Positions 7,443 to 45,216 of a stretch of DNA of 64,000 bases are shown here, one piece after another. Source of the DNA: a virus. The notes under the pieces were generated by a model. It saw only the letters and a program-made list of their open reading frames with translations, made no database searches and was not told where the DNA came from. Position numbers and translations under genes: made by a program. Where the stretch lies: the IMG/VR virus record IMGVR_UViG_3300035490_000050, positions 1-64,000 of that record; one strand, 5' to 3'. The stretch's first letter is position 1; each line of letters opens with the position of its first letter.

Positions 7443-7524
7443 GTAATCCCCTTCCGGTATCTCGCCAGCACGATTAGTGCCTGATACCCTTCCCCGTTTG
7501 CCCATGAGCCCATGGGCAGGGTTA

Positions 7525-26496: not shown

Positions 26497-28647
26497 ATGT
26501 ATAGCCCAAAGATCATCGAACAAAATCTAAACTTTTTTGCCGCAAAAGAAGGGTGGATGCCGACCCATCACACCTTCAATGAAGTTGTAGAGTTCACGAA
26601 TTACATTAAGTCTATAACCACCCTAGCAAGCAATTCCAAAGGCGCATGGATCGATAAGGTAGCTCCCCTCACCGACAAGAGACGTGCGGAGATACGACGC
26701 TGGATATTGAATGAGCAGGTACTCTGCTCTCTCTCTTACCACTACTGGCGTGATAATTACGCTTATTGCGTTGACGAAGGTGGGCAGATTAAGAAGTTCA
26801 AAAATAGGAGATCGCAAGACGTTTTCGATTCGATTGTTGCTGAGTTAGAAGAGAAACAGGCGGGTATACAGATTTTATGTCTGAAAGCCCGCCAAATCGG
26901 GATCACGTCTCTCGTAGCTTTGTACTTCATGCACAGGATGCTTTTTGTACCTAACGTCTTAGCTGTTATGGCGTCCGTACAAAAGGAAAAGTCAGAAGAG
27001 ATTGAGGTAAAACTAAACACAGCATACGACATGTGTCCGTTTTGGTTGATTCCTCCAAGGACTCCGAAGAGAGGATTTTCAAACGGATCACGTCTCAATA
27101 TTGAATCCGGTATGCAGCCGAAAGGTATTGCACAAGGAAAGAGTCCTACCTTAATCCACATCTCAGAGCTTTCTCTTATCCCTAATCCTCACAACACTAT
27201 TGAGGAAGGATTGCTACCTGCTACTCACCCGACGAAAAACCTATTTATGGTATTCGAGAGTACAGGATCGGGAAACGTTGGATGGTTTGCTGATTTCTGG
27301 AGATCGCAGAAAGAAAAGTGGCCTCTAAATACAGGAAGAATGTGCCCTATATTCCTATCGTGGCCTCTAGCAACCGATCTTTATCCTGAAGCTGATTGGA
27401 TGAGGCAGCACCCTGTCCCGGCAGGATTCTATGAGAGACGCCTAGACGCAACGAAGGCTCATATAACACGCTGCGAGTCGTACATTAGAAACACCCCATA
27501 TCTAGCCAAAGTTGTAGGTTCGGATTATCGTGTTCCAATCGAACAGCAGTATTGGTGGGAAATTGAGTATGCTCAGGCAAAGGAAAGACATTCATTACAG
27601 CAGCACGCTGCACGTTTACCTGCCGATGACTTTGAGGCTTTAACCGGAGTACATGATAGTGTCTTTGACCAAGAGACAATCATGGAACTGGAAGACGATA
27701 TTTACGAGATTAAGAGTGATGGGAAAAAGGTCCGCAAAGAACCATTCCACGCCTATGCGATCACAGGACATTCCATTTTAGAAGAGTTCGATCCAAGTGA
27801 ATCTCAAATAGACTACAGCAAAGAAGTCATTCACTTAACCCATAAATCAAATCGAGATGAACGATACGATTGGGAACTTGTTCCTTTGCTTCCGATAGAC
27901 GAAGAAACCGAAAGCTATACATTCGACAGGCTTCTTGTTTATGAGCCTCCGCAAAGAGGAGCTTTGTATAGCTGTGGAGTCGATACTGCGCACGGTCTAG
28001 GTCACGAGGATGAGGATAGATTCTGCGCATCCATGACAAGAGTTTCAAGCGGATCGGGTTGCGATTTTCAAGCCGCAGAGCTTACATCTTTGAGATTCAG
28101 CCCCGCGCAAGCAGTTCCTTTCCTAGCGGCTATGGCGACGTGGTACGGACAAGTATCTGGACATTATAGGGGAGTGAAGTTCTCAATCGAACAGGTCGAA
28201 GGACCAGGAGATACCTGCCAGAACCAATTAAAGATTATGGGTTTCAACTGGCACCATACTCCAGGAAGGCTAGATGGTAAGAAAGTAAAGGACGAAAACA
28301 AGCATCGGGAAGGATGGTATTCCAACAAAGTCACTGTACCTATTTTGATGGATCGATTTATTGAGGCTGTAAATGGAGGTTGGTACGTTCCTTACTCCAA
28401 GTGGCTGATAGAGGAGTTGAAGACTCTTGAGCGCCATACGAAAGACGGCGGAAGAGACGTTATGACGCACCAAAAGAACAAGCATGACGACAGGATACGT
28501 GCTGCTGCACAGAGCTATTTGAACTGCCATACTTACGATGATCTATCCGCACGGTCGCAAAAGAGGTACAATGTTCCAAGCAAGAAGAAAACAGACCCCA
28601 ATAAGGGTAGGTGTATGTCGAACACATTCTCAGTTGGAGATTGGTAG
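26497..28647 (+). CDS. terminase large subunit
   Basis: 716 aa, longer than many. The packaging ATPase has a variant Walker A, KARQIGIT (130-137), a Walker B-like strand LIHISE (219-224), and the coupling motif ESTGSG (254-259). The C-terminal nuclease begins with CGVDTAHG (493-500, first catalytic Asp), then SIEQVEG (563-569), and HDDR (663-666) near the end, giving three acidic clusters of the RNase H-like fold. It cuts phage DNA and drives packaging into the head together with the portal (31499). The ending (SKKKTDPNKG) is basic. Confidence 0.9.
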   Translation: MYSPKIIEQNLNFFAAKEGWMPTHHTFNEVVEFTNYIKSITTLASNSKGAWIDKVAPLTDKRRAEIRRWILNEQVLCSLSYHYWRDNYAYCVDEGGQIKKFKNRRSQDVFDSIVAELEEKQAGIQILCLKARQIGITSLVALYFMHRMLFVPNVLAVMASVQKEKSEEIEVKLNTAYDMCPFWLIPPRTPKRGFSNGSRLNIESGMQPKGIAQGKSPTLIHISELSLIPNPHNTIEEGLLPATHPTKNLFMVFESTGSGNVGWFADFWRSQKEKWPLNTGRMCPIFLSWPLATDLYPEADWMRQHPVPAGFYERRLDATKAHITRCESYIRNTPYLAKVVGSDYRVPIEQQYWWEIEYAQAKERHSLQQHAARLPADDFEALTGVHDSVFDQETIMELEDDIYEIKSDGKKVRKEPFHAYAITGHSILEEFDPSESQIDYSKEVIHLTHKSNRDERYDWELVPLLPIDEETESYTFDRLLVYEPPQRGALYSCGVDTAHGLGHEDEDRFCASMTRVSSGSGCDFQAAELTSLRFSPAQAVPFLAAMATWYGQVSGHYRGVKFSIEQVEGPGDTCQNQLKIMGFNWHHTPGRLDGKKVKDENKHREGWYSNKVTVPILMDRFIEAVNGGWYVPYSKWLIEELKTLERHTKDGGRDVMTHQKNKHDDRIRAAAQSYLNCHTYDDLSARSQKRYNVPSKKKTDPNKGRCMSNTFSVGDW

Positions 28648-28660
28648 ACGGGAGAGGGCA

Positions 28661-28927
28661 ATGAACCACGACGTATTGATGGCCGTTTTTATGCTTGTTA
28701 CGATCCCACCTTTGTTAGTTATCATGTGGTGGAGTAGAAAAGGACTACAGGGAATAGATTGGGAGCATCGGTTTGAGGTCAGGGAAAGGTTGCTTATGGC
28801 AAGACTTCCTCATGCTATCACCCTATGGCGTAACTTATTGGAGGCGTTTCGTGACAATAAGCCGGAAGAAGAAAAGAAGAAGTGTGCAAAACAGGTTTAC
28901 GACTACATCGAACTCATGACAAAATAA
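28661..28927 (+). CDS. small membrane-anchored protein, 88 aa
   Basis: ATG after GGGAGAGGG. The N-terminal 25 residues (VLMAVFMLVTIPPLLVIMWW) form one hydrophobic helix, followed by a charged, helical, Lys-rich part. It could be a membrane-tethered packaging or injection accessory. No family was recognised. Confidence 0.5.
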   Translation: MNHDVLMAVFMLVTIPPLLVIMWWSRKGLQGIDWEHRFEVRERLLMARLPHAITLWRNLLEAFRDNKPEEEKKKCAKQVYDYIELMTK

Positions 28928-28939
28928 CGGGAGGGGAAA

Positions 28940-29209
28940 ATGGGCATAATCAAGTGGTTTAACGACAGGTGGAACAAGCCAGAGGAAGCGGCGCAGGAGG
29001 CTCCAAAGGTTGAACCTGAGCCTGTTTTGAGCGACTTTGACCGCGTAAAGAACTACTTTGCATCTGGCGGCAAAATTGTAGACCTAACGAACAGGCCGCG
29101 CATCGAAGGAGACGGTTTTGCTCCAGATCACGAACTCCTGACGCCTTTTAATCGGGCGCATGAAGGAACGAAGGCTGGACTGAACTCTCTGGTGAGAGGT
29201 AAGAGATGA
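28940..29209 (+). CDS. hypothetical protein, 89 aa
   Basis: ATG after GGGAGGGG. The first 15 residues are basic and aromatic (GIIKWFNDRWNK). A Glu/Pro-rich linker follows, then a mixed region. The function is unknown. Confidence 0.5.
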   Translation: MGIIKWFNDRWNKPEEAAQEAPKVEPEPVLSDFDRVKNYFASGGKIVDLTNRPRIEGDGFAPDHELLTPFNRAHEGTKAGLNSLVRGKR

Positions 29210-29415
29210 GTGATAGAGCAAAAGCCTTCATAGTCGTCTTAGATTCTGACCTAAGCGAAGAGGAATCTGAAACAACACGTCAAGCACTGCTTCATTTTCG
29301 CGGTGTTATAAACGTTAAACCTCACATTCACGATATTGCCGATGTGATCGCACAGGACCGAGCGAAATACAAACTTTCCACCGCGATATACGAATTTCTA
29401 AGGGACTGGAAATGA
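29206..29415 (+). CDS. conserved-type phage protein, 69 aa
   Basis: ATG overlaps the previous stop as ATGA. The pattern FIVVLDSDLSEEESETTRQA, then LLHFRGVINVKP, and a final helix resembles a very common small phage and plasmid protein of unknown role. A ferredoxin-like alpha/beta fold is plausible. Confidence 0.55.
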   Translation: MSDRAKAFIVVLDSDLSEEESETTRQALLHFRGVINVKPHIHDIADVIAQDRAKYKLSTAIYEFLRDWK

Positions 29416-30104
29416 AGTTTCTCAAACTTACCAAGCGCCTAAACGAGCACGAGAACTGCGTATGCTTATGGACTAGGTGGTTTACAGTTATTTGGGACCG
29501 TGGCTCTATCCAGTGCCGTGGAACTGATGAATTTGAGTTGGTGATAAAGTATCGCGCTTGGGGTCCGGTTCTGTACTGGGGCAATAGGGACATTGAGAAG
29601 CTAGGCGAACGTTCCAAGTTCGACAGGCTCCAGTGGACAAAGATTCAACCTCGTTACGCCGAACTCAGGAAGCGCAGGATAGATGAGAGAGATTATTATG
29701 AGCGCAAGGAACAGGATGTAAGGCTAGGAAAAAGGAAGAATCCTGCGGACATGGATTACAAAGAACGGCATGAGGCCACAATGGAAGCCGTCAGGAAAAT
29801 GAAATTTACGGACAACTTTATGCATTTAATGACCACTCCTGTCGCTAAACTGGCATTGGAGCGTGGGGAAGTAGTCGAGGATATTGACTTCGACGGTACG
29901 CATACAGGAAAGTTTTTGACGCAGGAATGGTTTGATAAAGACAAACAGAAATACGTTCCTGTCGGCCTTCCGAATGGTGGTATTCTAGGGTTCAAGCGTT
30001 CGGAGACGGGCGAAGGATACGGGACAATAAACGTTCCCGGAGCGGAGTTGAGGCAGGTTTCTAGCGGTCAAATGGACAGGATGAAATTGGAGGATGGGAA
30101 ATGA
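29412..30104 (+). CDS. hypothetical protein, 230 aa
   Basis: ATG at 29412 overlaps the previous stop. The N-terminal domain (residues 15-60) is Trp and Cys-rich (CVCLWTRWFTVIWDRGSIQC), then strongly charged helices (RKRRIDERDYYERKEQDVRL) up to 120. It may be a scaffold or assembly factor in the packaging region. No family was recognised. Confidence 0.55.
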   Translation: MKFLKLTKRLNEHENCVCLWTRWFTVIWDRGSIQCRGTDEFELVIKYRAWGPVLYWGNRDIEKLGERSKFDRLQWTKIQPRYAELRKRRIDERDYYERKEQDVRLGKRKNPADMDYKERHEATMEAVRKMKFTDNFMHLMTTPVAKLALERGEVVEDIDFDGTHTGKFLTQEWFDKDKQKYVPVGLPNGGILGFKRSETGEGYGTINVPGAELRQVSSGQMDRMKLEDGK

Positions 30105-30589
30105 TTACCAAAGACACTGAATTGATGACACCGGAGCAACGCGACGCGGTAGAACGCGCCAGAAAAAACGCACCGCCAATCGAGATTTTCGTGGAGATAG
30201 CGAAATCTATTCATCAAACCATTCCAAATGTAGATGATAGACCGGGATGGAGACATGGCGCAACGAGGATGATCACACGTATCGGGGGAGTAAATGCTTA
30301 TGAAATCGAAGACGGCTTAGCTCCTTCCGATCTTAACCTTTCCAAGATTGACTACATTGTGTTCTATCGCCAAGCAGTAAAGAATAAACACACTGGAGAG
30401 GTAAAATACTTTGCCACTTGGGTTCCTTTTGGATCAGTGTCAGAGGTTCACCACGGTCAAACGATTGAAATAAAAGGTGACGGAATCTCTATTGAGTGGG
30501 ACCGTGAGGACGTGGAAGAAAAAGCGAGAGAATCGTTTCTTAAGCTGCAAGAGATGTGCGAGGAGTTCTACAACCGGGAGGATGTGTGA
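30101..30589 (+). CDS. hypothetical protein, 162 aa
   Basis: ATG overlaps the previous stop. Beta-rich centre (SKIDYIVFYRQAVKNKHTGE, then VKYFATWVPFG) and charged ends. No family was recognised. Confidence 0.5.
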   Translation: MITKDTELMTPEQRDAVERARKNAPPIEIFVEIAKSIHQTIPNVDDRPGWRHGATRMITRIGGVNAYEIEDGLAPSDLNLSKIDYIVFYRQAVKNKHTGEVKYFATWVPFGSVSEVHHGQTIEIKGDGISIEWDREDVEEKARESFLKLQEMCEEFYNREDV

Positions 30590-31419
30590 GCGCACAGGAA
30601 AATAGAATAGAGGTATTGCAAACTGAACTTGCCGCTCTTAAGCAGCAGCGCAAGGAAAAGGCTATTGCCGCCAAGAGATCGAAAAAGTGGGTGAGCGTCA
30701 AAAAGAGAATGCCAGGGGATGATGATCCATGGGACTGGATTGACAGCATAAAGGCGGCTGTTCTCATCTGGAGGAATGGTCACGTAGAGCATGGATGTTA
30801 CGATAAAGAAAATAAAAGATGGTACGAGGATGATGGAACGTATTGTTATATTTGGGCAAAAGAGACAACTGAAGGAATCACACATTGGATGGATCAACAT
30901 TGGCGTACCGCAGATTGCTGGTATCCCCCATACGGACCAGGAATAGTCAACCGTATCGTATATATATGGAGAAGGTTTACCCAAGGAGTATCAGATACGG
31001 CGCACGACATGAGGCCGAAATCGTGGAGCATGGGAAAAGCTCAACTAGATAAAAAAGTGGTATTTTACAAGGACGCATCAGGAAAGATTATGAGCGGTAT
31101 GCCTGAGAATCTTCCTGCGCCGCGAGGATACGAAAAGATTATCTGCAATTCCGCACATGAAGCGGAGAGGTTGTCGGAACTTCAAAGGCGACAGGAAAGG
31201 GTTGAGCATCGACGCCAGCAGGAACAAAGAGGGGCGATTGAAGCCGAGTTCATCGGCCAGATCAGGAGCGACCGTAGGACTTTGATGGCAAATGCCAGAG
31301 ATAACAAAAACAGGGATTTCCTGCGCAGGGCTGAGGAAATGAGCGAGGGTAGGAAAAACCCAACAGCGTATGAGAGGGAAAGCTACCTCCACGCAGAAGC
31401 CTACGAAAAAGGGCACTAG
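30586..31419 (+). CDS. DUF551-like domain protein, 277 aa
   Basis: GTG at 30586 overlaps the previous stop (GTGA), with GGGAGG upstream. An N-terminal coiled coil (ENRIEVLQTELAALKQQRKE) is followed by WVSVKKRMP near 35, then ITHWM near 100. The first and last of these are the hallmarks of the small DUF551 domain found in phage proteins. A helical, Arg-rich C-terminal half follows. The function is unknown; it may be involved in assembly. A possible promoter and the portal leader lie right after it. Confidence 0.6.
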   Translation: MSAQENRIEVLQTELAALKQQRKEKAIAAKRSKKWVSVKKRMPGDDDPWDWIDSIKAAVLIWRNGHVEHGCYDKENKRWYEDDGTYCYIWAKETTEGITHWMDQHWRTADCWYPPYGPGIVNRIVYIWRRFTQGVSDTAHDMRPKSWSMGKAQLDKKVVFYKDASGKIMSGMPENLPAPRGYEKIICNSAHEAERLSELQRRQERVEHRRQQEQRGAIEAEFIGQIRSDRRTLMANARDNKNRDFLRRAEEMSEGRKNPTAYERESYLHAEAYEKGH

Positions 31420-31423
31420 ACGG

Positions 31424-31513
31424 TTGACAAGATTTGGTTTACTATGCGTTTAGCCACGTCTGAGGATGCGGCATGTACCGGGAGGAAAGTGACCATGAGT
31501 GACGTACCTTAGA
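31424..31513 (+). promoter_or_regulatory. portal leader: -35-like box and five-codon ORF
   Basis: TTGACA at 31424 lies 71 bases before the first ATG. No convincing -10 follows at normal spacing, so a promoter is uncertain. GGGAGG lies nine bases before ATG 31495, which begins a five-codon frame MSDVP ending in TAG at 31510-31512. The portal GTG at 31499 is inside this frame in another phase. The short frame is either a leader peptide or the zero-phase part of a +1 frameshift product. Confidence 0.4.
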
Positions 31514-33619
31514 CTAGAAACTCCGTCTCCTCAGCAGACAGAGACAATTCGTTGGCGTGTTCCTAATTGGGAAGCCTCTGACTCTGAGAAGATCGCTTGG
31601 GTTGATGAGCAGGTTTCCGAAAGCGAGGGTTGGCTTGAGGGTCAGCCGTCCTATAAAAATCTAAATCAGAATCTACGTGTCTTTGATGGGATTTTCAAAG
31701 ACAAAACTCGGTCAAGTCTCGTCACAAACGAATTACGATATTCCGTCAATAAATTTTGCACGACGATGGCGGAAGTTCGTGAAATCGCGGGATTTAGCTC
31801 CGATGTACCCAATTACAAAAAAATGGCTGAGATGCTCACTGGAGTATCGAAGGCTGTTTATTTAGAGTCTGACTTTCCCCTTCAAATTCTCAAGGCTCTG
31901 CAATACGCGACGGTCATGGGTGTCGGATACCTCTGGGCGAAGGTCCGTGGCTCTCAATATAATTTCGGTCCAAGAGAATTAGTATTTGACGCGCTAGGAC
32001 TATTGGACGTAATGCCTACGCAGGTGCCGTCAAAGACAAATGATGTTCAGGATGCCTATTCGGTAACGATTTACGACTATATGCCGATTGCGGAGGCGTG
32101 TGCAAGATTTCCTCTATTCGCAGGCAAATTTCAAACAGTCGGGCGCAATAACTACAAATCTCTGATTCAGGCGCAGCGGCAGGACTTTGCTGCAACGTGG
32201 CGTTACGGGCAAGTGGGGGAGACGCAGAGCAGGAGCTTCGGAAACCTCTACACAGAGATAAGATACACATTTGTAAGGGACATACGAATCAACACATCTG
32301 GTTTAGAAATGAAGATGGGAGACGAGGGAACGTCCTGGTTTTATAAAGTACCGGCGCTAGGACAGGAAATCTTTGGAGGGATGAAGAATGGCCAACCTTA
32401 CTATCGCCCTGCAATGGTGGAGGACTGCCGCATCTACCCTAACCTTCGGCTCATCATTACGTCTTCAGGACTCGACCAAGTTATGTACGACGGTACTTCT
32501 TTCGACTGGGACCCGGAAATTCCAATAATCCAATACACAGTAGACGATGTAGCGTGGGAGCCTTCAGGAAGATCGTTAGTAGGGGATGTAGCGTCAATCC
32601 AGACAACGATTAGGAAGCATGAGCGCAAGGTCGATCAGACCATGACGGCCAAAAAGAATCCTCCAATGGGCTACGATCTGGATACCAATGGAGGAGCGAA
32701 GATTGAGCACTTCGATATATTTGAGGAAGATGTTCGTCTAGGACTAGCAGGCGGTCAGGAGCCAACAAAGGCATTTCAATCCCTGCTTCCTGATACGGTT
32801 ACAGTCGATAATATAGACTTCACTTGGCTGAAATACCTTTCTGAAAAACTCCTAGCGCAATTAGGATTGAACGATGTTGGCAACTTGGCCAATATGAAGT
32901 TGAATATCGCCAACGACACAGCAGATAAGGAAGTAGGGGCTATCGGTCCTATCGCCAGAGGGATTGCGATGAGGATTGAGAAGGCGAATAAGAAGTTGGG
33001 CGAGAGGATGAAGTACCTTATTCCTCAATGGTTTGACGCTGCTAGGCTTATTGAGTATGTTGGACCTGACGGAATTGCAAAGGAGATGTTCGACCTCAAT
33101 CCTGATGACATGGTTCCAAGCCATTTGCCTGATGAATTCATAAACGGAAATATGTACCCCACCACGCCGTCGATGTACGACAGACTGACGAGGGCAAAGT
33201 ATTTCGTTCGGAAACTAAGGTTGATTTCCGTGCCGAGTACACTGTTGAAGATCACACAAATCCAGGAGCAAATGAAGTGGCTTCAACTAAAGCGCCAGCC
33301 TGATTGCCCGGTAAGCTGGGAAACGACAATGGAGAAGTTGGACATTGCCAACCCAAAAGACGAGATGAAGAAATACTTCAAGGAGCAACAGGAACTCACC
33401 AAAGCCAAACTGATTGGTATGGCAATGGCGCAGGAGGAAATGAAGAAGCTCGGTATCCAACCGCCAGAGGAAGGTGGAGGTAAGGGCGGCGGTGGAGGCA
33501 AGGGTGGAGGCGGAGGATTACACGCAGGTGGACGGCCCCCTTCGGGAAGCAAGCCGCCTCGCATATCGCAAAAAGGTGCGGCAGGTGGAACGCCCAGAAC
33601 CGTGGTGAAGGAATCCTGA
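31499..33619 (+). CDS. portal protein
   Basis: 706 aa, directly downstream of the terminase region and upstream of scaffold and coat. The fold fits large podovirus-type portals: long N-terminal domain, a central wing and stem with KLNIANDTADKEVGAIGP near 460-480, and a helical C-terminal part. The C-terminus is Gly/Pro-rich (about 655-700). The portal forms the dodecameric channel through which DNA is packaged and ejected. The start is uncertain: GTG 31499 lies 13 bases from its Shine-Dalgarno, and ATG 31495 is better placed but ends after five codons unless a +1 frameshift occurs. Confidence 0.8.
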   Translation: MTYLRLETPSPQQTETIRWRVPNWEASDSEKIAWVDEQVSESEGWLEGQPSYKNLNQNLRVFDGIFKDKTRSSLVTNELRYSVNKFCTTMAEVREIAGFSSDVPNYKKMAEMLTGVSKAVYLESDFPLQILKALQYATVMGVGYLWAKVRGSQYNFGPRELVFDALGLLDVMPTQVPSKTNDVQDAYSVTIYDYMPIAEACARFPLFAGKFQTVGRNNYKSLIQAQRQDFAATWRYGQVGETQSRSFGNLYTEIRYTFVRDIRINTSGLEMKMGDEGTSWFYKVPALGQEIFGGMKNGQPYYRPAMVEDCRIYPNLRLIITSSGLDQVMYDGTSFDWDPEIPIIQYTVDDVAWEPSGRSLVGDVASIQTTIRKHERKVDQTMTAKKNPPMGYDLDTNGGAKIEHFDIFEEDVRLGLAGGQEPTKAFQSLLPDTVTVDNIDFTWLKYLSEKLLAQLGLNDVGNLANMKLNIANDTADKEVGAIGPIARGIAMRIEKANKKLGERMKYLIPQWFDAARLIEYVGPDGIAKEMFDLNPDDMVPSHLPDEFINGNMYPTTPSMYDRLTRAKYFVRKLRLISVPSTLLKITQIQEQMKWLQLKRQPDCPVSWETTMEKLDIANPKDEMKKYFKEQQELTKAKLIGMAMAQEEMKKLGIQPPEEGGGKGGGGGKGGGGGLHAGGRPPSGSKPPRISQKGAAGGTPRTVVKES

Positions 33620-33654
33620 TAACTGTAAGAAAACAAACAACATAAGGAGAAGGA

Positions 33655-33897
33655 ATGGCAATCAAGGTCAAGACACAGAAATCATATTACGTCACGGAAT
33701 TTAATCTGGAATTACCTGCTCACGCTGGTGAACTCGACGACACATTGAAGGCAATCCAAACCACAGGAAAAAGCGTCACTCTGTATAATGATGGGAGCGT
33801 GCTTGGAATTAACGTAGAGCAGAAAGAAAAGATTCCATCTGAGGTGATTGACCAGAAAATTCGTGATCTTTTAGGTTTGGATACAAAATTTCTGTAA
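33655..33897 (+). CDS. hypothetical protein, 80 aa
   Basis: ATG after AAGGAGAAGG. A small beta-rich domain (KSYYVTEFNLELPAHAGEL, then SVTLYNDGSVLGINVEQKEK). It may be a minor virion or capsid-assembly protein because of its place after the portal. No family was recognised. Confidence 0.5.
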   Translation: MAIKVKTQKSYYVTEFNLELPAHAGELDDTLKAIQTTGKSVTLYNDGSVLGINVEQKEKIPSEVIDQKIRDLLGLDTKFL

Positions 33898-33904
33898 AAA
33901 GTGC

Positions 33905-34037
33905 TTGACAAACAGGTACGAATTGCTGTAGGTTTTTGAAAGAGATTCATCGAGATACATGCGCCCCTCGCGCAGAAGTTTAGAGGGAATACGCAATGGC
34001 TCATTAGGCGAAGTGGCCTGATGGGCCATTTCCTTTT
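33905..34037 (+). promoter_or_regulatory. attenuator-like leader (promoter box, MAH peptide, hairpin)
   Basis: TTGACA at 33905 (16-base spacer to TGTAGG) precedes a leader with ribosome site TAGAGGG and a three-codon frame MAH (33996-34007). A nine-base stem (GAAGTGGCC / GGCCATTTC, one wobble pair, 34010-34032) and CTTTT follow at once. The order promoter, short ORF, intrinsic terminator, gene is that of a transcription attenuator. It is inferred from sequence layout only. Confidence 0.4.
34010..34037 (+). terminator. candidate intrinsic terminator in leader
   Basis: Nine-pair stem with a five-base loop (TGATG), followed by CTTTT. It lies 40 bases before the ribosome binding site of the 34-aa gene at 34072. 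Confidence 0.5.
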
Positions 34038-34071
34038 GCAGTCAACCTCAAACAAAAAAGGAGTATTCCCA

Positions 34072-34176
34072 ATGGCAAAGCATCGTGTAGGCGGAAAAAA
34101 GGCGCACGTGAAGAAAGTCGGCAAGAAGCGCAGAGGCGGCAAGCGTCACAGCAAGAAGAGCGCAATCAAGGCGTAG
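34072..34176 (+). CDS. 34-aa basic microprotein, KKR-rich
   Basis: Found by eye. ATG after AAAGGAG. The product is MAKHRVGGKKAHVKKVGKKR then RGGKRHSKKSAIKA, with almost half its residues Lys or Arg and many Gly and His. Several similar proteins are scattered through the virion module (38325-38814, 48523-49636, 60455). Such proteins could bind packaged DNA or RNA in the particle. Confidence 0.6.
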   Translation: MAKHRVGGKKAHVKKVGKKRRGGKRHSKKSAIKA

Positions 34177-34208
34177 TTGGTAGCCACTAACCGTTAGACG
34201 GAGACGAA

Positions 34209-34514
34209 ATGGCTACACCAGCAATGCCACCAACGCCAGATCAAGGAGGATCGCCCCCTTCGGGAGCAGGTGGTCCTCCTTCTCCACCTCAAAGTGGACC
34301 ACAAGGAGGCGCACAGCCTCCATCGCAAGGTCCAGCCAATCAAATCCAACAATTGCTCGGCCAATGGTCGCAGGTAGCGCAGCAAATCGCATCTGCGTAC
34401 CCTCAGATTGCTTCACAGATGAACAAGGTCGTACAGGCGATAGGAGAGGCACAGACGGCAATGGTTACGCCTTCTCAGCCGACTCCAATTTCGCAGCAAC
34501 CTCAAGTAAGCTAA
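34209..34514 (+). CDS. Pro-rich virion-assembly protein, 101 aa
   Basis: ATG after GACGGAG. The first 45 residues are Pro/Gly/Gln-rich; the rest is a helix (NQIQQLLGQWSQVAQQIASA). Small proteins with this layout lie beside portal and scaffold genes in related phages I recall. No catalytic role is seen. Confidence 0.5.
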   Translation: MATPAMPPTPDQGGSPPSGAGGPPSPPQSGPQGGAQPPSQGPANQIQQLLGQWSQVAQQIASAYPQIASQMNKVVQAIGEAQTAMVTPSQPTPISQQPQVS

Positions 34515-34542
34515 CGAACACAAATCCGGGAGAATAGTGCAA

Positions 34543-35532
34543 ATGACATTAGCCGAAGTTTTGAAGAATTCGGGCTGGAGCCAGGAGCAGATTGATGCTC
34601 TTGACGCGAAAGCCATGAGTGGGCTTACCAGCTACGTTTCCAATATCGAACAGACAGCGGCACAGAAAGAACAGGCGGCAAAAGATTTAGCAGCAAAGGC
34701 GGAAGCGGATCGTAAAGCACAGGAAGCAGCCGCCGAAGCTGCCAGAGTTGCACGGGAAGCAGCAGAAGCATCCGAAAGAGGATGGGCTGATTGGCGGGAT
34801 AATGTTTATAATCCTGGCATCGCCGCATGGGAAACCGAAAGACAAAAGTTGGCGAAGGCAGCATCAGATGCCGCAGCGGAAGCAGCGTTCTACAAGGCGC
34901 AGAGAGAAAGTTATTTGGGGACGCTCAACATCAACCCGGAAGACGCTCCGGTATTCACTCCTCCAGCCGCAGTTGTAGTTCCTCCCGCTCCAAAGACTCC
35001 CGGAACTCCCACATTTACGATTGATGAAGTTCGCAACGAACTAGGAAATTCTCTTGGAACGGTAGCCAATATCCAATGGGAGTACCAAACGCTTTACGGA
35101 AAGCCAATGCCGATCTCTCCTACCGAACTTCTACGGCAGGCTGAGGCGAACAAGTTCAAAGACCCTGCAACCTACGCCTCTCAGATTTTCAAGTTCTCGG
35201 AGAAGAAAGAAGAGATGCGTCTAGCAGCAGCGAAGGCCCATGACGATGCCGTAGCCGCCGCTGCTGTAGCTGAGAGGGAAGCAAAGTACAAGGAAGAGAC
35301 CGACAAGCTCAAGGCTGAATTTGCGGCTAAGGAACGTTTAAGAGCGGAGCAGGCCGGTAGCAATCCTGATACGAAGTTGCCTCCAGGATCATCGAAGTTC
35401 TCCGATTTACAGAGAGCAACGAAGGCGGGTGAGCGCAAAGACCCGACAAAGATGACTCAAGCCGAACGCAGACAGACTTCTCTCGACAATATTCACAAGG
35501 CTCTGGAAGAAAGACAAGCAGTTGTAGCGTAA
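34543..35532 (+). CDS. scaffold-like protein
   Basis: 329 aa from ATG 34543; a GTG at 34537 is an alternative. Long Ala/Glu/Lys-rich helices run from about 35 to 120 (KDLAAKAEADRKAQEAAAEA) and again from about 215 to 275. A Pro-rich linker (about 135-160) and a charged C-terminus follow. Its place between portal and coat genes and its composition fit a scaffolding protein that guides procapsid assembly. Confidence 0.65.
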   Translation: MTLAEVLKNSGWSQEQIDALDAKAMSGLTSYVSNIEQTAAQKEQAAKDLAAKAEADRKAQEAAAEAARVAREAAEASERGWADWRDNVYNPGIAAWETERQKLAKAASDAAAEAAFYKAQRESYLGTLNINPEDAPVFTPPAAVVVPPAPKTPGTPTFTIDEVRNELGNSLGTVANIQWEYQTLYGKPMPISPTELLRQAEANKFKDPATYASQIFKFSEKKEEMRLAAAKAHDDAVAAAAVAEREAKYKEETDKLKAEFAAKERLRAEQAGSNPDTKLPPGSSKFSDLQRATKAGERKDPTKMTQAERRQTSLDNIHKALEERQAVVA

Positions 35533-35578
35533 GCGGAAGATTCAGAAAAACAGCGTAAATCGCTGAAAGGAAACGAAA

Positions 35579-36856
35579 ATGCCAATTACACCGACCGATC
35601 CAACCTTCGGCGAAATTGATTCCACAAACCTAGAGAGCGTCCGCAAAGAGGTGGTCTGGAATAACTTCTTCGTCGGGACTCCTTTCTTGGAAGAGTTACG
35701 CCGTGCCGGTGTAGCTGACCCGTATCTTGGCGGCGCAGGTATGACGGAAGTCTTCCTGTACGGTCGTCCGCAGGGCGCTGGCGTGAATCCAGGTCAGACG
35801 ATCACTGTGACCCGTCAGCAAATTACCGACAAGCTGAAGTTCTATGAGAAGGGCTACGCTTCATGGTTCCCGATGGACGATTGGCAGATGGATGACGGCT
35901 CTGGACAGGGTGGTGTGATTAACTCCGGTCCTGCGCGGATTTGCGACATCTACGCGATCTTTATGGAAGCGTTGGTGATGCAGATCAACACGATGCTGGA
36001 AATGGACTCGTTCCGTCACGGTCAGCAATCATCTTCAACCGTGCAGGACAACCGTTACAAAGTATCGAACGGCTTGGACGAAGCGTTGAATAACGGCATT
36101 GATCCTTCGCTCTATGGCAATATCTACAAGAGCTACGGACAGCAAGCCAGAAACGGCGCGGTAGGTGCTGCAATCAACGTGACACCGCTTTACCTTGGAC
36201 AACAGGTAACGACCGGAACCGTGGCCGCACCTGCAACGTCAGGACCGGGACAAATCAACTTTGGTTCTCTGATGCAACTCTGGTCGCAGTGCAAGGCGGT
36301 GGGTGGAAAACCGAAGCTGGGCATCACAAATGTGTTCGGATTCAAGGCAATTGCGATTGCTCTTGACGCTTATCGGCGTGACATCTCGAACACGAAGCAC
36401 GACATCATGTGGGATGCTCTGGACTTCAACGGTACGCAGATTTATTCCGATCCTCTGGCTCCTTCGGCAGTTGCGCAGTATTACATTCCGCTTGCAACAG
36501 GTGGAGCATCTGGAAACACGAGCTTGGTGGACGGCGTTGGATCGAACACGACAACCATTACCTATACGACTCCTCAGTTTGTCAACTCGTCAGGCGCATC
36601 GGTTACGACTTCGCCAACGAACTCCGGTTTGCCATCGAACGCGAACATTCAGCCTTCGGAAGCGATTTACTTCCTGACGCCTGAGACGTTCAAGTTGCGT
36701 ACAACGGACAAGCCTGGATGGAACTTCGGAGTGCGCAGGACGAGCCAATGGAACAACGTTAGCGTGGACACGATCTTCATGCGCTTGGCAACGAACCTGT
36801 ACTGTGTGCAGCCTCGTCAAAACGCATACGCTTTCGGCTTTACGTCAATCGGTTAA
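35579..36856 (+). CDS. major capsid (coat) protein
   Basis: 425 aa, expected length for a coat protein. It begins PITPTDPTFGEIDSTNLESV and has an HK97-like mix of strands and helices. The late segment VSVDTIFMRLATNLYCVQPR is a typical closing strand. The gene sits in the standard place after scaffold. It should assemble into the icosahedral shell around the portal. No processing protease is obvious. Codon use is normal for the module. Confidence 0.75.
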   Translation: MPITPTDPTFGEIDSTNLESVRKEVVWNNFFVGTPFLEELRRAGVADPYLGGAGMTEVFLYGRPQGAGVNPGQTITVTRQQITDKLKFYEKGYASWFPMDDWQMDDGSGQGGVINSGPARICDIYAIFMEALVMQINTMLEMDSFRHGQQSSSTVQDNRYKVSNGLDEALNNGIDPSLYGNIYKSYGQQARNGAVGAAINVTPLYLGQQVTTGTVAAPATSGPGQINFGSLMQLWSQCKAVGGKPKLGITNVFGFKAIAIALDAYRRDISNTKHDIMWDALDFNGTQIYSDPLAPSAVAQYYIPLATGGASGNTSLVDGVGSNTTTITYTTPQFVNSSGASVTTSPTNSGLPSNANIQPSEAIYFLTPETFKLRTTDKPGWNFGVRRTSQWNNVSVDTIFMRLATNLYCVQPRQNAYAFGFTSIG

Positions 36857-38824: not shown

Positions 38825-40060
38825 GTGGCACTGCAAAACATGATTCAGGATGTGCTCGGCATTCCTGGCATGAACCGGGGACTTGCGGTATCGCGCATAA
38901 ACGAGGCATTCCAAAAGATTCAGAATGAGAATGTATTTAGTTTTCAGTGCGTGACTGGAGGGTGGTTAACACCCTCTCTGCTTGGTGGTCCTAATACTTC
39001 ATTCCTTAGCCCCGGAACGATCACTGTAGTACCCTACACAAACACGATCACAGGTGATGCTATAGCGACGGCTGCATGGACGGCTGCCGTTCCTTATCCC
39101 CCTCTGTTGACCCAGCAGCAGATTCGTGTACCCTCATACGGTCTATATTCTATTATCGCGTTAGGAAATAACGGAACAGTTGCTTATGCTACCTTGTTGA
39201 CTTCTGGTTCTGGTCAGACCCCAGGACAATATACGGTTCCAGTTCTTGATCCGGCGACAGGCGCAGGTGGAACCGTGTCCATCACGGTAAATGCAAATGG
39301 CACCGTAACTCTTCCACCTGTGCTAGTGACGGCAGGAAATAATTATACCGCTCCATACATCGCTTTTGCAGAGGGTGGCACTCCAGCGACATTTTCGGTG
39401 ACACTAATTGCTACAATCACCATAGATAGACTTTGGACGGAGCCGCCGCAGGTTGCGTCTAGCTACATGATTTATCAGGCTTACTACCCTGCACCTGCTA
39501 ACTTCAAGAGGTGGTACAACGTCCGCGACACACAAAACAATCAAGCAATGAAGTTCTCGGATATGACACAGATCGACTTAGCCGAAGAAGACCCGCAGCG
39601 CGAGATATTCGACCAACCTGAGTATGTGGTTCCTTTCGGACCAGATACAAGACAAGGAAGCGCGACCTATGGGCAATGGCTAGTAGAATTATGGCCACAT
39701 CCAATTAGCCAACTAAGCTATACATTCATGTGCCAGTGTAACTGGCCAGCACTTATGAACCCTACCGACACGCTTCCTTTCCCTCTGACAGATGAGATTG
39801 TTAGAGAGAGAACTTATGAGGTAATAAGTTTATGGAAAGAGGGACAGAAGGGCAATGATATGGAACGAGGATCGGGCGCAAATTGGCAGTTTCTCGCAAA
39901 AGCTCATCACGAAGAGTACAAAGACTTGCTCCGTCAAGCAAGGATTATGGACCGTCATCTTGTTGACCTATACTTCACAAAGGCGAAGATGAACGCACCA
40001 TTTAACGGAGGCGAACCATTTACAAACACTAACGGAACTGCCAACGTAGGCAGTTGGTAA
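38825..40060 (+). CDS. head-tail adaptor-like protein
   Basis: 411 aa from a GTG (38825); ATG 38840 is the alternative. The N-terminal 45 residues and the C-terminal helices (RERTYEVISLWKEGQKGND, EYKDLLRQARIMDRHLVDLY) fit the gp4-like adaptor that attaches the tail below the portal. A Thr/Gly/Val-rich domain is inserted at about 120-195 (GSGQTPGQYTVPVLD, then GGTPATF) and matches the domain in 36913 and 40471. The insert makes it longer than usual. Confidence 0.6.
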   Translation: MALQNMIQDVLGIPGMNRGLAVSRINEAFQKIQNENVFSFQCVTGGWLTPSLLGGPNTSFLSPGTITVVPYTNTITGDAIATAAWTAAVPYPPLLTQQQIRVPSYGLYSIIALGNNGTVAYATLLTSGSGQTPGQYTVPVLDPATGAGGTVSITVNANGTVTLPPVLVTAGNNYTAPYIAFAEGGTPATFSVTLIATITIDRLWTEPPQVASSYMIYQAYYPAPANFKRWYNVRDTQNNQAMKFSDMTQIDLAEEDPQREIFDQPEYVVPFGPDTRQGSATYGQWLVELWPHPISQLSYTFMCQCNWPALMNPTDTLPFPLTDEIVRERTYEVISLWKEGQKGNDMERGSGANWQFLAKAHHEEYKDLLRQARIMDRHLVDLYFTKAKMNAPFNGGEPFTNTNGTANVGSW

Positions 40061-40070
40061 GGAGAATAAC

Positions 40071-40466
40071 ATGCCGAGCTATCCGGGACCGGGACTAGCA
40101 GCACCTTTGGCTTACACGAAGCAAGGAATCTTTTGGGCAGGGGAGACAGTAGGAACGACCTTCCCACAATCGTTAAGCACCGCGTTTCAGTTGCAGCGGG
40201 TGGATGGCAATTATTATCCGTGGGGATTTGCTGTGGAGGTACAGTTTACAGGGAATCCTGGCACGACTAAGGTTGACATTATGGGAGCGGAGACGGACAA
40301 CCCTGCCAATTACATCAGTATCGGGTCAATCCAAACATTTACCGCCCCAGTTGCGGGACAGTATGTAGGGCGTTTTGAATCGTTAGCATTATATCCGAGA
40401 TACGTTGCTTTGAACATGACCACGCTAGGAAACTCAGTTCCAGTGACGGCGAAGATTTCGAGGTAA
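40071..40466 (+). CDS. virion-type protein, 131 aa
   Basis: ATG ten bases after the adaptor stop. A small beta-rich protein (VDGNYYPWGFAVEVQFTGNP, then GQYVGRFESLALYPRYVAL). It may be a head-tail joining or minor tail protein. No family was recognised. Confidence 0.5.
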   Translation: MPSYPGPGLAAPLAYTKQGIFWAGETVGTTFPQSLSTAFQLQRVDGNYYPWGFAVEVQFTGNPGTTKVDIMGAETDNPANYISIGSIQTFTAPVAGQYVGRFESLALYPRYVALNMTTLGNSVPVTAKISR

Positions 40467-40470
40467 AAGG

Positions 40471-43400
40471 ATGAAAAGATTTCTCTTACTTTTGGCGCTT
40501 TTGTTTCCTATCGCGGCTCATACACAGACCGCTGCGTATTCGGGATTTTGCGACCAAGGGGCAACTTCGGCTACAACTTCAGGATTGAATAGCACGAATA
40601 AGCTACAGGGGATTATTCCGTACTGTACTGTGACAGTGTACTTAGACGGTGTGGGTCAGGTTTCCAGTGCATCCTATACGAGCGGAGGAACAATTACCGG
40701 AAATATTGGTCAGACTTGCAATGCAACATTTCTTGGAGGCGGTCCTAGCGGATCGGGAGTGATTGCGTTGACTGGAATAAATACAATAGCTGGAGGGACA
40801 GCATTTTCTATTACACCTCCCGGAGTAGGGATATATCCGACAGCACCAACCACAGCTACACTTACGAGCGGAACTGCCACTTGCTCAGGAACAGCTACGG
40901 TTGTTACTTCGTTAATTCCAATCAAGGCTACGATATACAAAGACGCAGCCAACACGCCGCTGACAAACCCTTACCAAACAACTGTAAACGGGCAGATTAC
41001 TTTCTTTGCAGCGACAGGAGTAGGGTACGACATTGTTAAGTCGGGTGGTATTTATCCGCTTGTTTACACAACTCCACTAACTGTTACGGATTGGATAGCG
41101 GGCGGTGGCGGCATGATCTATCCCGGAGCTAATACTATAGGTGTGGGAAATAGTGGGAATAACGCATGGCGGACTCCGACTTACGGTGACATTCTGGCTC
41201 TGTGGAGCGGGATCAAGGACGCGGAGTATTGTCTTGCTGGGGATGGGACCATGCAGCTTTGCGGCAATCTCATCTCCCTTACCACCACAGGCAACCCCGG
41301 TCCGGCAACGCTCTCTCCTACTGGTGCGCTCAATATCCCTACTGGGGTGAACTGGTTTGGATCGGGGAATGCAAATGTCGGTGGGTCGCTGCCGACAGCA
41401 TCGACAGGAAATTATAATACCGCAAGTGGACAATCCGCTCTAATTGCAGATACGACCGGCAGTTATAACACCGCCCTCGGCTATCAGTCTCTCAACGCTA
41501 ATACGACGGGTGTCACTAACACTGGAATTGGATACGAAGCCTTGCAAAATATGGTGACTGGCCAGGAAGATACTGCCGCTGGCGCTTTCACTCTGACTTT
41601 TGACACAGGCGTCGGGTTTAACACTGCCGTGGGTGAAGGAGCACTGTACAGGAATACGACTGGAGGCTACAACGTCGCCATAGGTGACAGTGCGCTTACA
41701 AACCCAACCACAGCATCGGGAAACACGGCAGTTGGGTACAACTCACTCAATGGTGTGTATGGCGGGTCGAGCGTCGGTGGTGAAAATACGGCGGTAGGTA
41801 ACGGCGCTCTCGTGGCTAACACTACAGGAACCTATAACGTCGCCATCGGAGCGATTGCCGGAAATGGAACACCTGCGCTACAAACGGGAACTTACAACAC
41901 GTACCTCGGTTCCGCCGCTACGGCTAATGCGGACGGCTATACAAACAGCACAGCCGTGGGTCACGGTGCTACAATCACCGCCAACAATCAAGTGACCTTG
42001 GGCAATAGCGCCGTTACCAGCATTACAGCACCAGGCATTGCTCCTTCCAGCGGCGGTCCTGATTGTTTGCAGATCAGTAACGCATCTACGGGCGGGCAAG
42101 TTACAACTGGCGGAACAGGCTGTGCAGTCTACTACAACGTGGTCAACTACGGGGCAGTAGCCGACAAGCAGCCGCTATCCGGGTATCTGGTAGCGAGCTT
42201 GACCGCCAGTAGCACGACACTGACTTGCTCGACCTGCGCGTTTACTACGGCAGCGGTGGGGAAGTACGTCACTTTCCAGCCTTACTTCGATGCTTTTACG
42301 CCGTTTGCTACGACGCCAGCCGTAGCTGAGATCACGGCTTATATCTCAGCCACGCAAGTGACACTTAGTAAGACAGCCGCAAACACGGGTAACTTTAGCA
42401 TTGAGTGGGGCACGGACAATGTACCGGCCTTCAATGCCTGTGCAGCCGACGCAATAGCGAAGACTCTTGGGGGAACCTGCATCATCCCGGCCGGAAACTA
42501 CCTGCTGGCGACCTATCCGTACTACATGCTTAACGACGTAAGCGACGATGGTAGTTACTCAGCCAATCCTGGTGGCTCAGGCGGAACGGTCACTTGTACG
42601 CCGTCTTCTGGATCGCTGACTAGTGGTGGCTGTGTAGTGAGCGGAGGAACGCTTTACAAGCACAGCGCGACTTTGCAAACGAGCTATGCAAGCGGCGGCG
42701 GATGCCCTGGAGTTGGGTGGGGTTATGGTCCGTGCGGGTCGGATGTAGTGGTAACAGTGACAACCAATTCCAGTGGCATCCCCACAACCGCAACGGTGGT
42801 GTATGGTGGCTTCAACATCAACTCCCCGGTAACATTCAATGTGGTTCCTCTCGGTGGCGACGGCGCTACGCTGACCGCTACGGAGACAGGCGGCACAATG
42901 AACACGCCCACCTTGACGGCTGGCGGGGATGGCTATACCGCATCCTCAACAGTGCCCTGGTACGCGATTGGCGGAGGCTGCACGGCCTATGAAGGTGTTG
43001 CGGGCGGCCCTAACCCAGTGGCTTACGGAACCGTGCCAACGAACTCCAACGGCTTTGCTTCCGGTGCAGTGACGGTGACACAGAATGCTACCGGCTGCAC
43101 ATCCAATCCGACTATTGTCACAGGACCGGCGGCTTGCAATACAGGTACACTTGGCAGTCCTGTGTGGGGACAGTGTTCCAACATAGCTCCATTGAATTTA
43201 GTTGCGCTGCCGGTTCAGGTGTTGCTGACTGCGGACGTGAATTTTAACGGAGCTTCGGGAGCGGGAGGTCCAGGAGGCGGCGTCAATCTCTATTCCGTAT
43301 GGGATGGAGTGACCGTGGACAATAACCAGCCCATCATGTTCGGCGGCACGATGCAGTACGAGGATATTGGGCAATTCTCGCTAAACAATGGATTTATGGG

Positions 43401-45216
43401 AATTGCGGCAGTCAACAATGCGAACTACACAAAGATTCACGACATCAACTTCAACACCGCTATCGGAATGTGGACAGCCGCGACCGATATTGGGTTCGTT
43501 GCGGATAACTTTGTATTCAATGGGTATGCGTCATGGATCAATGGCGGCGTCTGGTCACACCGTCTCGATTTCCCGGAAGCTAACGGGGGGTTCTTCGATG
43601 CTTTCGCAGTCAGTAACATTCTAGTCCGGGTTGCAGCCTATGGTGGGCCTGGTTCTATTTCGCAGCAACTCGACGACTGGTTCAACAACAACTTCTGGCA
43701 CGCGGAGTTTAGTGGAGCGAGCACAGACTTTCCCGAGACGTGCAAATTTCCGCAAACTGTGAATCAGCGGCAAACAAGCGCGACTTTTAACATCCCTCAA
43801 AGAGCAAACGATATGTGCTATCGTGGCATCTCTTCTCTAGGCATGGCAATTCTCACAAGGGATGCCAGGAGCACCGGCGCGGCTGAGTTCAACAATCTGC
43901 AAGTAAAGGGCGGCAGCAGATATATCTTCTATGGCAGTATCGGCGCAATGCGTATGACAAACCTCGGCGGCGAGGGTCTGACCCCCATTACGGGGACAAG
44001 TGACCCATACCGCAGCGCCACAACGCAGGAAGGTTGGCTGGTTTATACAGGGGATGGCTCCTCTGCGCCTAGCGAGGGGCCACAAATCAACGGGATAGCA
44101 GCTACCGCAAATTCCAACGTCACGCAGACGTTGTGGGATATTAGCGGTCTACTTGTAGTCGGCACTGCGGGACTGCCGTTCGGCACCAAGTGGTACAACC
44201 TTTCCAATAGCAACACGAATACGAGTCAGACGAGCCAGAATCCCGACTTCAACGATCTTATCTCTTTCTACGGAGGGGCTGAGATGGGAGGGCCGACGCC
44301 GGTTAACTCAACCTCTCCCCCGCTCTACTTCGACGCCTATTACACTAACGCTCTACACAGAGTGGGAGCAGTCGTTGGGGAGATGGGTGGTATGGAGTTC
44401 ATGGACCCGACACTCACAACAGACTGGCTGGATGTGCTAGGCACAGGAGTAACGTTCCACGTTCCTGTGAGTGGCATTACGAGTGTCAACGGTCTGCCGA
44501 TGGGTGTTTATAACACGTACACTTACAACATCGGTGGAGCTATTCCGGGGACTTCCACCGGCCAGTACAATACTGCGAGCGGCTACGGTTCCTTAGTGGC
44601 GCTGACTTCGGGAACCAATAACGTCGCATATGGCGCAGAGACGCTAACAACCAACACTACTACCGGCAGTTATAACGCCGCTTTTGGCACGGGAGCTTTG
44701 CAGTTCACAAACGGAAACTACAATACGGGCATCGGTCAGACCGCCTTGGAGTACAACACCAGCGGCACGAACAACACAGCGGTCGGCGCGCTGGCGAGCG
44801 ATTCCAGGAGTTACCTGTCCGGCTGCTCGTTCTTTGGATACAACTCGCAAGCCTCCGCCGACAGCTTATCTGACTGTATGGCGCTCGGAGCGAACTCGAC
44901 TGTAGGAGCAAGCCATCAAGTAGTAATAGGAGCAAGCACGATTACAAGCACGATACTGCAAGGAGCCGTGCAGATTAACGGCACAATCAATGTGGCAACG
45001 GCGCGAAAGGGAACTTTTGTCTGCACTAGCGGGGGCAGCATCGTAGTTTCAAACGCAAACTATTTGGCAACCTCGGATGTAGTGATTACAAACAATTCTC
45101 CTGGGGGAACTGTGTCTTGGGCCCCAAACATCAAAGCATCCACTCCTGGCACCAGCTTTACTGTCATTTGTGCGACTAGCGACACTAGTACGTACAACTA
45201 TGACATTTTGAATTGA
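40471..45216 (+). CDS. giant tail fibre/tailspike with signal peptide
   Basis: 1581 aa. The N-terminus MKRFLLLLALLFPIAAHTQT is a clear Sec signal peptide, unusual for a tail protein. Next comes a beta domain with the GGxGVxPxxP theme shared with the capsid and adaptor proteins. Residues about 313-510 hold NTAxGxxAL-type repeats (YadA-head-like trimeric beta-roll). From about 557 (VVNYGAVADKQPLSGYL) to 1300 there is a pectate-lyase-like beta-helix with a Gly/Thr-rich insertion. A second NTAxGxxAL block lies at about 1364-1480, then a C-terminal cap. It probably binds or cuts host polysaccharide. It looks like a secreted host adhesin recruited by a phage. Confidence 0.7.
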   Translation: MKRFLLLLALLFPIAAHTQTAAYSGFCDQGATSATTSGLNSTNKLQGIIPYCTVTVYLDGVGQVSSASYTSGGTITGNIGQTCNATFLGGGPSGSGVIALTGINTIAGGTAFSITPPGVGIYPTAPTTATLTSGTATCSGTATVVTSLIPIKATIYKDAANTPLTNPYQTTVNGQITFFAATGVGYDIVKSGGIYPLVYTTPLTVTDWIAGGGGMIYPGANTIGVGNSGNNAWRTPTYGDILALWSGIKDAEYCLAGDGTMQLCGNLISLTTTGNPGPATLSPTGALNIPTGVNWFGSGNANVGGSLPTASTGNYNTASGQSALIADTTGSYNTALGYQSLNANTTGVTNTGIGYEALQNMVTGQEDTAAGAFTLTFDTGVGFNTAVGEGALYRNTTGGYNVAIGDSALTNPTTASGNTAVGYNSLNGVYGGSSVGGENTAVGNGALVANTTGTYNVAIGAIAGNGTPALQTGTYNTYLGSAATANADGYTNSTAVGHGATITANNQVTLGNSAVTSITAPGIAPSSGGPDCLQISNASTGGQVTTGGTGCAVYYNVVNYGAVADKQPLSGYLVASLTASSTTLTCSTCAFTTAAVGKYVTFQPYFDAFTPFATTPAVAEITAYISATQVTLSKTAANTGNFSIEWGTDNVPAFNACAADAIAKTLGGTCIIPAGNYLLATYPYYMLNDVSDDGSYSANPGGSGGTVTCTPSSGSLTSGGCVVSGGTLYKHSATLQTSYASGGGCPGVGWGYGPCGSDVVVTVTTNSSGIPTTATVVYGGFNINSPVTFNVVPLGGDGATLTATETGGTMNTPTLTAGGDGYTASSTVPWYAIGGGCTAYEGVAGGPNPVAYGTVPTNSNGFASGAVTVTQNATGCTSNPTIVTGPAACNTGTLGSPVWGQCSNIAPLNLVALPVQVLLTADVNFNGASGAGGPGGGVNLYSVWDGVTVDNNQPIMFGGTMQYEDIGQFSLNNGFMGIAAVNNANYTKIHDINFNTAIGMWTAATDIGFVADNFVFNGYASWINGGVWSHRLDFPEANGGFFDAFAVSNILVRVAAYGGPGSISQQLDDWFNNNFWHAEFSGASTDFPETCKFPQTVNQRQTSATFNIPQRANDMCYRGISSLGMAILTRDARSTGAAEFNNLQVKGGSRYIFYGSIGAMRMTNLGGEGLTPITGTSDPYRSATTQEGWLVYTGDGSSAPSEGPQINGIAATANSNVTQTLWDISGLLVVGTAGLPFGTKWYNLSNSNTNTSQTSQNPDFNDLISFYGGAEMGGPTPVNSTSPPLYFDAYYTNALHRVGAVVGEMGGMEFMDPTLTTDWLDVLGTGVTFHVPVSGITSVNGLPMGVYNTYTYNIGGAIPGTSTGQYNTASGYGSLVALTSGTNNVAYGAETLTTNTTTGSYNAAFGTGALQFTNGNYNTGIGQTALEYNTSGTNNTAVGALASDSRSYLSGCSFFGYNSQASADSLSDCMALGANSTVGASHQVVIGASTITSTILQGAVQINGTINVATARKGTFVCTSGGSIVVSNANYLATSDVVITNNSPGGTVSWAPNIKASTPGTSFTVICATSDTSTYNYDILN

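Follow-up and report, generated by a model that had tools for sequence, protein, structure and literature searches.

A phage tailspike with a predicted Sec signal peptide and a possible extracytoplasmic step in virion assembly

Introduction

In the usual view, phages produce their tail fibres and attach them to the particle within the cytoplasm. Why, then, would a 1581-residue phage fibre begin with a Sec signal peptide (SP)? The question is raised by an open reading frame in a 136,454-base IMG/VR virus record, from which a 64,000-nucleotide stretch (the window) was analysed. The anomaly pointed out in the initial annotation is genuine, and it is larger in extent than was claimed there. The fibre appears to belong to a known kind of protein, the tailspike, with an SP in front of it.

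The Fibre Gene and Its Parts

The gene and the parts of its product are as follows (the slash marks the predicted cleavage site).

40460..40463, + strand: Shine-Dalgarno-like GAGG, with the ATG 7 nt downstream (sequence)
40471..45216, + strand: SP-bearing tailspike/fibre gene, 1581 aa, ATG start (PHROG tail spike; K1-lyase_C)
40471..40524, + strand: predicted Sec signal peptide, residues 1-18, MKRFLLLLALLFPIAAHT/Q (rule-based SP score 12.58; alignment with relatives)
40525..41109, + strand: putative virion-docking domain of the tailspike head-binding type, residues 19-213, with the conserved Cys27/Cys52 pair (AlphaFold2, Foldseek, hmmsearch, paired cysteines)
40645..40926, + strand: insertion of ~94 residues (59-152) inside the docking domain (alignment; L007 is the only sharer among the relatives read)
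41383..42060, + strand: first YadA-head-like NTAxG block, residues 305-530 (motif count; phrog_4636; tblastn to phage tail fibres)
42103..44550, + strand: central region, residues 545-1360, cysteine-rich, putative beta-helix (VVNYGAVAD...GGTCIIPAGNYLL motif only; exchange with contig L043)
44569..44850, + strand: second NTAxG block, residues 1367-1460 (motif count)
45028..45207, + strand: K1-lyase_C, a tailspike C-terminal domain, residues 1520-1579 (Pfam PF24146)

The NTAxG motifs, initially described as YadA-head-like repeats, are well beyond chance: the fibre has 11, grouped within residues 316-475 and 1367-1460, whereas shuffled sequences contain 0.39 on average and 4 at most. The first block corresponds to the tail spike family phrog_4636 (PHROGs, E 4e-29). 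These blocks do lie around a central region, as had been proposed, whereas the pectate-lyase-like beta helix placed there is not established, the motif listed above being its one indication; the region has no match in Pfam, even at E 5, and its AlphaFold2 model (816 aa, two sequences in the alignment) has a mean pLDDT of 27. Searches of the PDB by phmmer with the full fibre, its central part, and its C-terminal part gave no useful match. The K1-lyase_C domain, a feature absent from the initial annotation, reaches 29.8 bits (E 8.5e-7) against a gathering cut-off of 27 when the C-terminal part is scanned alone, and 26.2 against the same cut-off in a scan of the whole protein. The fibre contains 26 cysteines.

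The Signal Peptide and Its Conservation

Signal peptides were called with a home-made rule: a positive n-region, an uncharged hydrophobic core, and small residues at positions -3 and -1. The N-terminus encoded in the window, MKRFLLLLALLFPIAAHT/QT, combines a K/R n-region with a hydrophobic core of 13 residues, and the fibre is the only protein of more than 350 aa in the 136-kb record to score at least 10. None of 5000 random starts within the mature fibre reached that score; together with the score of 12.6 and the relatives described below, this confirms the SP noted initially. A mis-called start or a chance SP was rejected on the good ribosome site, the relatives, and the random starts. The features of a Sec and SPase I substrate (n-region charge, hydrophobic core, A-x-A site) are present in the family, the window copy having T at -1 (AHT/Q, where close relatives have AHA/Q), so that its cleavage site is less ideal than theirs.

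Relatives were sought with peptide patterns drawn from the mature domain, and the scan thus did not select for SPs. It returned 23 loci from ~19 non-redundant viruses, with an SP ahead of the domain in all of them. The signals diverge in sequence (MKKILLLLALLFPIAAHA/Q, MRRLIQLALFILAAPLLGVA/Q, MKHLYALCVFIFTASASA/Q, and MRKIALILGLFISLPLCA/Q), with the charge, the core, and the A-x-A/Q end kept. Among 35 SPs with sites set by the rule, which placed the cleavage too far downstream in two (L021 and Tunturi_4 gp114), the -1 residue is A in 26 and G or S in seven, and the +1 residue is Q in 33. Homologues without a signal, which the initial annotation had named as evidence against its reading, exist for the NTAxG block only: in phages of other hosts, none of eight such homologues has an SP, and most have few cysteines too. 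Every sequence found with the N-terminal module also has an SP.

These patterns bear on the possibility that the N-terminus merely looks like an SP, and is a hydrophobic segment retained in the cytoplasm, for trimerisation or insertion into the tail, of a spike that is assembled there in the ordinary way. All tailspikes known to us are assembled in the cytoplasm, the -1 residue of the window copy is poor, and the phage Tunturi_3 (see below) needs no SP, all of which would fit such a segment. It would be less expected to keep an A-x-A/Q processing site while the core sequence diverges, to recur in the same form on several unrelated downstream domains, or to be missing where phages of other hosts have homologous blocks; it also leaves the cysteine enrichment and even cysteine counts described below unexplained. 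We regard this explanation as improbable.

Two of the relatives have further features beside the fibre gene. In L009, this gene directly adjoins the end of an IS605-family element (6917-8001; TnpB; Pfam Cas12f1-like_TNB, E 2e-20), whose right-end hairpin borders on codon 2 of the SP. The usual ATG is ATC in this copy, and the start is likely an in-frame GTG within the IS end. In L007 (2916-7942), two more SP genes lie directly upstream of the SP fibre, encoding proteins of 1415 aa (34 mature cysteines) and 259 aa (six cysteines), which suggests several exported fibre-like proteins per phage.

The Domain Behind the Signal

The IMG/VR relatives have only their first ~120 residues in common, comprising the SP and one domain, and are divergent beyond. 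This domain was modelled with AlphaFold2 on the relative L008, which is without the insertion found in the window (18 sequences; pLDDT 82). The best Foldseek matches of the model in the PDB are 9vyg, the tail spike of cyanopodophage Pan3, and 7eeq_A, the "Tailspike head-binding domain" of Pam1 (probability 1.00, best E 0.004). In BFVD, the matches are tail spikes, depolymerases, and pectate-lyase-type phage proteins, down to E 7e-6, and a profile of the domain recovers the Pan3 spike (9vyg) by hmmsearch at E 0.0014. The domain that follows the SP looks like a virion-docking domain, by a similarity that is weak to moderate and on which two methods agree. Given this agreement, the protein appears to be built like an ordinary receptor-binding spike, with a conserved docking end and an exchangeable body, and with an SP in front. 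The length of the N-terminus may also be informative: ~31 residues precede the IP/VP motif without the SP and 49 with it, compared to 20 in Pan3. The form without the SP is closer to the length in Pan3, and this counts for a spike that is exported, cleaved, and then docked.

The exchange of the body is seen in contig L043, which represents another phage type and has DUF2612 and Gp53-like_C tail genes followed by a spike. The body of this spike is 95% identical to residues 215-1071 of the window fibre, with 99-100% DNA identity over residues 210-860. Its N-terminus is non-homologous to the docking end in the window, yet there is again an SP (MRSTSTVNLAVALALSILGGAVRVSA/QQQ); a scan for N-termini of the L043 type matched L043 itself only. 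Since the signal was kept when the docking module was exchanged, this suggests that the spike body is the part that needs export.

Genome Context and Cultured Relatives

The genes upstream of the fibre place it within the virion block.

26497..36856, + strand: genes for TerL, portal, and major capsid protein, collinear with their Tunturi_1 orthologues
38840..40060, + strand: tail protein homologous to Tunturi_1 gp11 (blastp E 2e-9)

By gene order and homology, the window's virus is distantly related to the podovirus Tunturi_1, the two sharing a syntenic set of TerL, portal, major capsid protein, gp11, SP fibre, gp30, and gp31. In Tunturi_1, gp11 lies directly upstream of the SP fibre gp12. We infer that the host of the window's virus is a soil bacterium, probably a member of the Acidobacteriota. 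In a search of 50,697 phage records, the N-terminal module matched Tunturi_1 and Tunturi_2 only, both of which are podoviruses of Tunturiibacter. A PHROG scan of ten downstream genes of the virion block in the window's virus found no other fibre-like protein. Downstream of the fibre, positions 46962-47561 encode a 199-aa protein with a lipobox-like signal (VPITAC), a candidate outer-membrane spanin, which sits between the fibre and an endolysin gene (47935-48447).

Among the cultured phages, SPs are present on gp12, gp13, gp14 (annotated as tail spike), gp16, and gp17 of Tunturi_1 (PP887698) and on gp12 of Tunturi_2 (PP885685). For Tunturi_1 gp12, cleavage is predicted to leave a mature protein that begins with QTAAYPNG. 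The siphovirus Tunturi_4, which is unrelated, has SPs on gp113 and gp114, and the tail fibre gp111 would gain one from an earlier start: an in-frame upstream TTG at 80076 (PP885687.1, 80076-80433) adds MNRISKAIGLCALALSVGSSYG/QTAAV (+119 codons), and the annotated start thus appears to be too late, cutting the signal off. In the jumbo myovirus Tunturi_5, for which 150 kb of the 309-kb genome were covered, they occur on the annotated tail fibres gp337, gp341, and gp342, as well as on gp338. The structural block of Tunturi_3, a phage isolated on the same host strain as Tunturi_1, has no SP fibres, and a rule extending to all Acidobacteriota phages was rejected for this reason. As judged from these genomes, phages of this host group often have the trait, which occurs in all three tail types and with several unrelated N-terminal domains and is not obligatory. 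The paper describing the Tunturi phages (PMC11924767) does not mention signal peptides, and neither "mass spectrometry" nor "SDS-PAGE" appears in its text. Tunturi_1 also encodes gp78 (PP887698.1, 53744-54946, - strand), an annotated tail protein whose lipoprotein-like N-terminus (SLLLTGCATG) is followed by eight cysteines.

The gene context is relevant to another explanation, in which the protein is exported and is not part of the virion, acting from the infected or lysed cell as a secreted or surface-bound depolymerase or adhesin, for example in exopolysaccharide stripping or in blocking receptors against superinfection. The SP and even number of cysteines point to export in this case as well, Acidobacteriota chromosomes have SP-bearing NTAxG proteins of their own, and bacteria do secrete tailspike-like enzymes, such as WceF of Pantoea, which has a Tat signal (PMC7949094). 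Such a role is nonetheless unlikely, given that the SP is followed by what resembles a virion-docking domain, that the gene lies just downstream of a gp11-type tail gene both here and in Tunturi_1, that annotated tail spikes or tail fibres bear SPs in Tunturi_1 and Tunturi_5, and that the PHROG scan of ten downstream genes offers no other fibre-like candidate in this virus.

Cysteines and the Oxidising Machinery

An even number of cysteines in the mature protein is found in 29 of 32 large SP proteins and in 38 of 79 controls (Fisher p 1.5e-5, an optimistic value because the counted proteins are partly related). The 32 comprise 28 proteins counted by script (25 even) and four from Tunturi_5, and the controls are SP-less proteins of the same contigs. 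Cysteine density is also higher, at 1.79 per 100 aa in the first 28 SP proteins vs. 0.77 in the controls. Of 19 relatives, 18 have both Cys27 and Cys52 in the docking domain, and one has neither. Even counts and the joint loss of two cysteines are typical of exported proteins with disulfide bonds. Signal peptidase I is encoded in all 60 of the Acidobacteriota genomes searched, VKOR in 20, and DsbB in six, so that oxidising machinery is not universal in the phylum by these models; the disulfide-forming enzyme VKOR is encoded in the Acidobacteriota metagenome-assembled genome (MAG) that holds a relative. Export from the infected cell, one of the options raised initially, gains support from SPs kept across divergent relatives, from the typical A-x-A/Q site, and from the even cysteine counts, and we consider export of the spike likely.

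Host Genomes

The initial annotation also raised the possibility that the phage had acquired the gene from a host, and proposed a search for bacterial homologues. When 396 Acidobacteriota genomes were searched with the profile of the docking domain, there was a single real match; it lies on a short phage-like contig of one MAG, where the neighbouring gene resembles those beside phage fibres. The fibre body has matches in 16 of 297 Acidobacteriota genomes, all of them to the NTAxG block only. The idea that the whole gene is a secreted host adhesin captured as cargo derives its appeal from three of these genomes (L062, L064, and L065), which have chromosomal, SP-bearing proteins with many NTAxG repeats that differ elsewhere. 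It is nevertheless very improbable, since the docking domain and K1-lyase_C are parts of phage tailspikes, the former is nearly absent from host genomes, the gene lies in the virion block, Pfam finds no YadA anchor, and the host NTAxG proteins that were read are cysteine-poor (0 to 6, compared to 26 in the fibre). On the docking domain, the synteny, and the scarcity of host matches, capture was set aside as the main reading, and a YadA autotransporter was rejected for want of the anchor; the Pfam models for YadA anchor, stalk, and head have no match in the fibre, where a scan at E 0.1 gave K1-lyase_C only. The host proteins could still be the source of the NTAxG block or of a signal, within a fibre architecture of the phage type. 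The highest number of NTAxG repeats, 32, is in a cysteine-free host protein of 2353 aa, and the same genome holds a relative of the phage module.

A Possible Route of Assembly

The reading that we favor, with a probability of roughly 0.57, is that this is a true, receptor-binding podovirus tailspike that leaves the cytoplasm through Sec, is oxidised in the periplasm, and attaches to virions when the cell lyses. The computational evidence for it consists of the SP and its conservation, the resemblance to docking domains, the location in the virion block, and the enrichment and parity of cysteines. The precursor would be recognised by Sec and cross the inner membrane unfolded, and cleavage near residue 18 would leave the mature N-terminus placed to dock. 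Its cysteines would then pair and the trimer fold in the periplasm, where the spike would wait. Capsids assemble in the cytoplasm, and the spikes would therefore meet virions only once the inner membrane opens: at lysis, the holin would open this membrane, finished particles would meet the spikes, and the docking domains would bind as the last assembly step, outside the cytoplasm. Phage P22 was reportedly completed in vitro from separate parts in 1967 by Israel and colleagues, in work on its in vitro morphogenesis that is cited in PMC2989905, which makes late docking physically reasonable. We know of no tailed phage that docks its spikes outside the cytoplasm. The T at -1 in the window copy and the ability of Tunturi_3 to manage without SPs count against export and late docking; a split assembly route is plausible. 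The wider proposal, that podo-, sipho-, and myovirus-like phages of Acidobacteriota from several unrelated groups have fibres that pass through Sec, undergo oxidation in the periplasm, and meet capsids assembled in the cytoplasm only at lysis, is tentative, and we place it slightly short of even odds.

If it holds, tailed-phage morphogenesis would include a second, extracytoplasmic assembly line. For fibres that go through Sec, virion assembly would be split between two compartments, disulfide bonds could stabilise the fibres in the extracellular environment, and secretion and oxidative folding would count among the host factors on which phage infectivity depends. We found no report of SP-bearing tail fibres in the searchable literature, a body of text that leaves out most subscription journals and preprints and whose silence is not proof of absence. 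Annotation would also be affected, as the lack of an SP has served as support for phage origin, for example for a protein in the Hankyphage paper (PMC6199706). The question can be tested directly in cultured phages of this kind (Tunturi_1, 2, 4, and 5), and Tunturi_3 provides a natural SP-less control on the host strain of Tunturi_1.

Comparison With Known Systems

Close structural counterparts are the P22-type spikes and those of Pam1 and Pan3, which, like the window spike, have a head-binding-like N-terminal domain, a swappable body, a tailspike C-terminal domain (here K1-lyase_C), and a gene in the virion block. P22-type spikes are not known to have an SP, and they fold in the reducing environment of the cytoplasm. 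The window spike differs from all of these in the Sec SP before its docking domain, its 26 cysteines, and the conserved cysteine pair within that domain. YadA-type trimeric autotransporter adhesins share the Sec signal and the NTAxG head-like repeats; the window spike, unlike these, ends in a tailspike domain and matches none of the YadA anchor, stalk, or head models.

Tat is a pathway for folded proteins. The exoglycan hydrolase WceF of Pantoea stewartii is a tailspike-like bacterial protein with a Tat export signal (PMC7949094), and so resembles the window spike in joining this type of protein to export; it is a host gene, whereas the spike has a Sec signal, a docking domain, and a place in a phage virion block. 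Passage of tailed-phage proteins through the host Sec system is itself known from the endolysin of Oenococcus phage fOg44, SAR endolysins, and the T4 antiholin RI (PMC6116005; PMC8385771), which differ from the window spike in being lysis proteins, and not virion fibres. The gp12 proteins of Tunturi_1 and Tunturi_2, hypothetical by annotation, have an SP, a homologous docking domain (~49% identity to the query module), and the same upstream tail gene. Their C-terminal body is unrelated to that of the window spike, and Tunturi_1 gp12, like the window spike, has an even number of cysteines (20).
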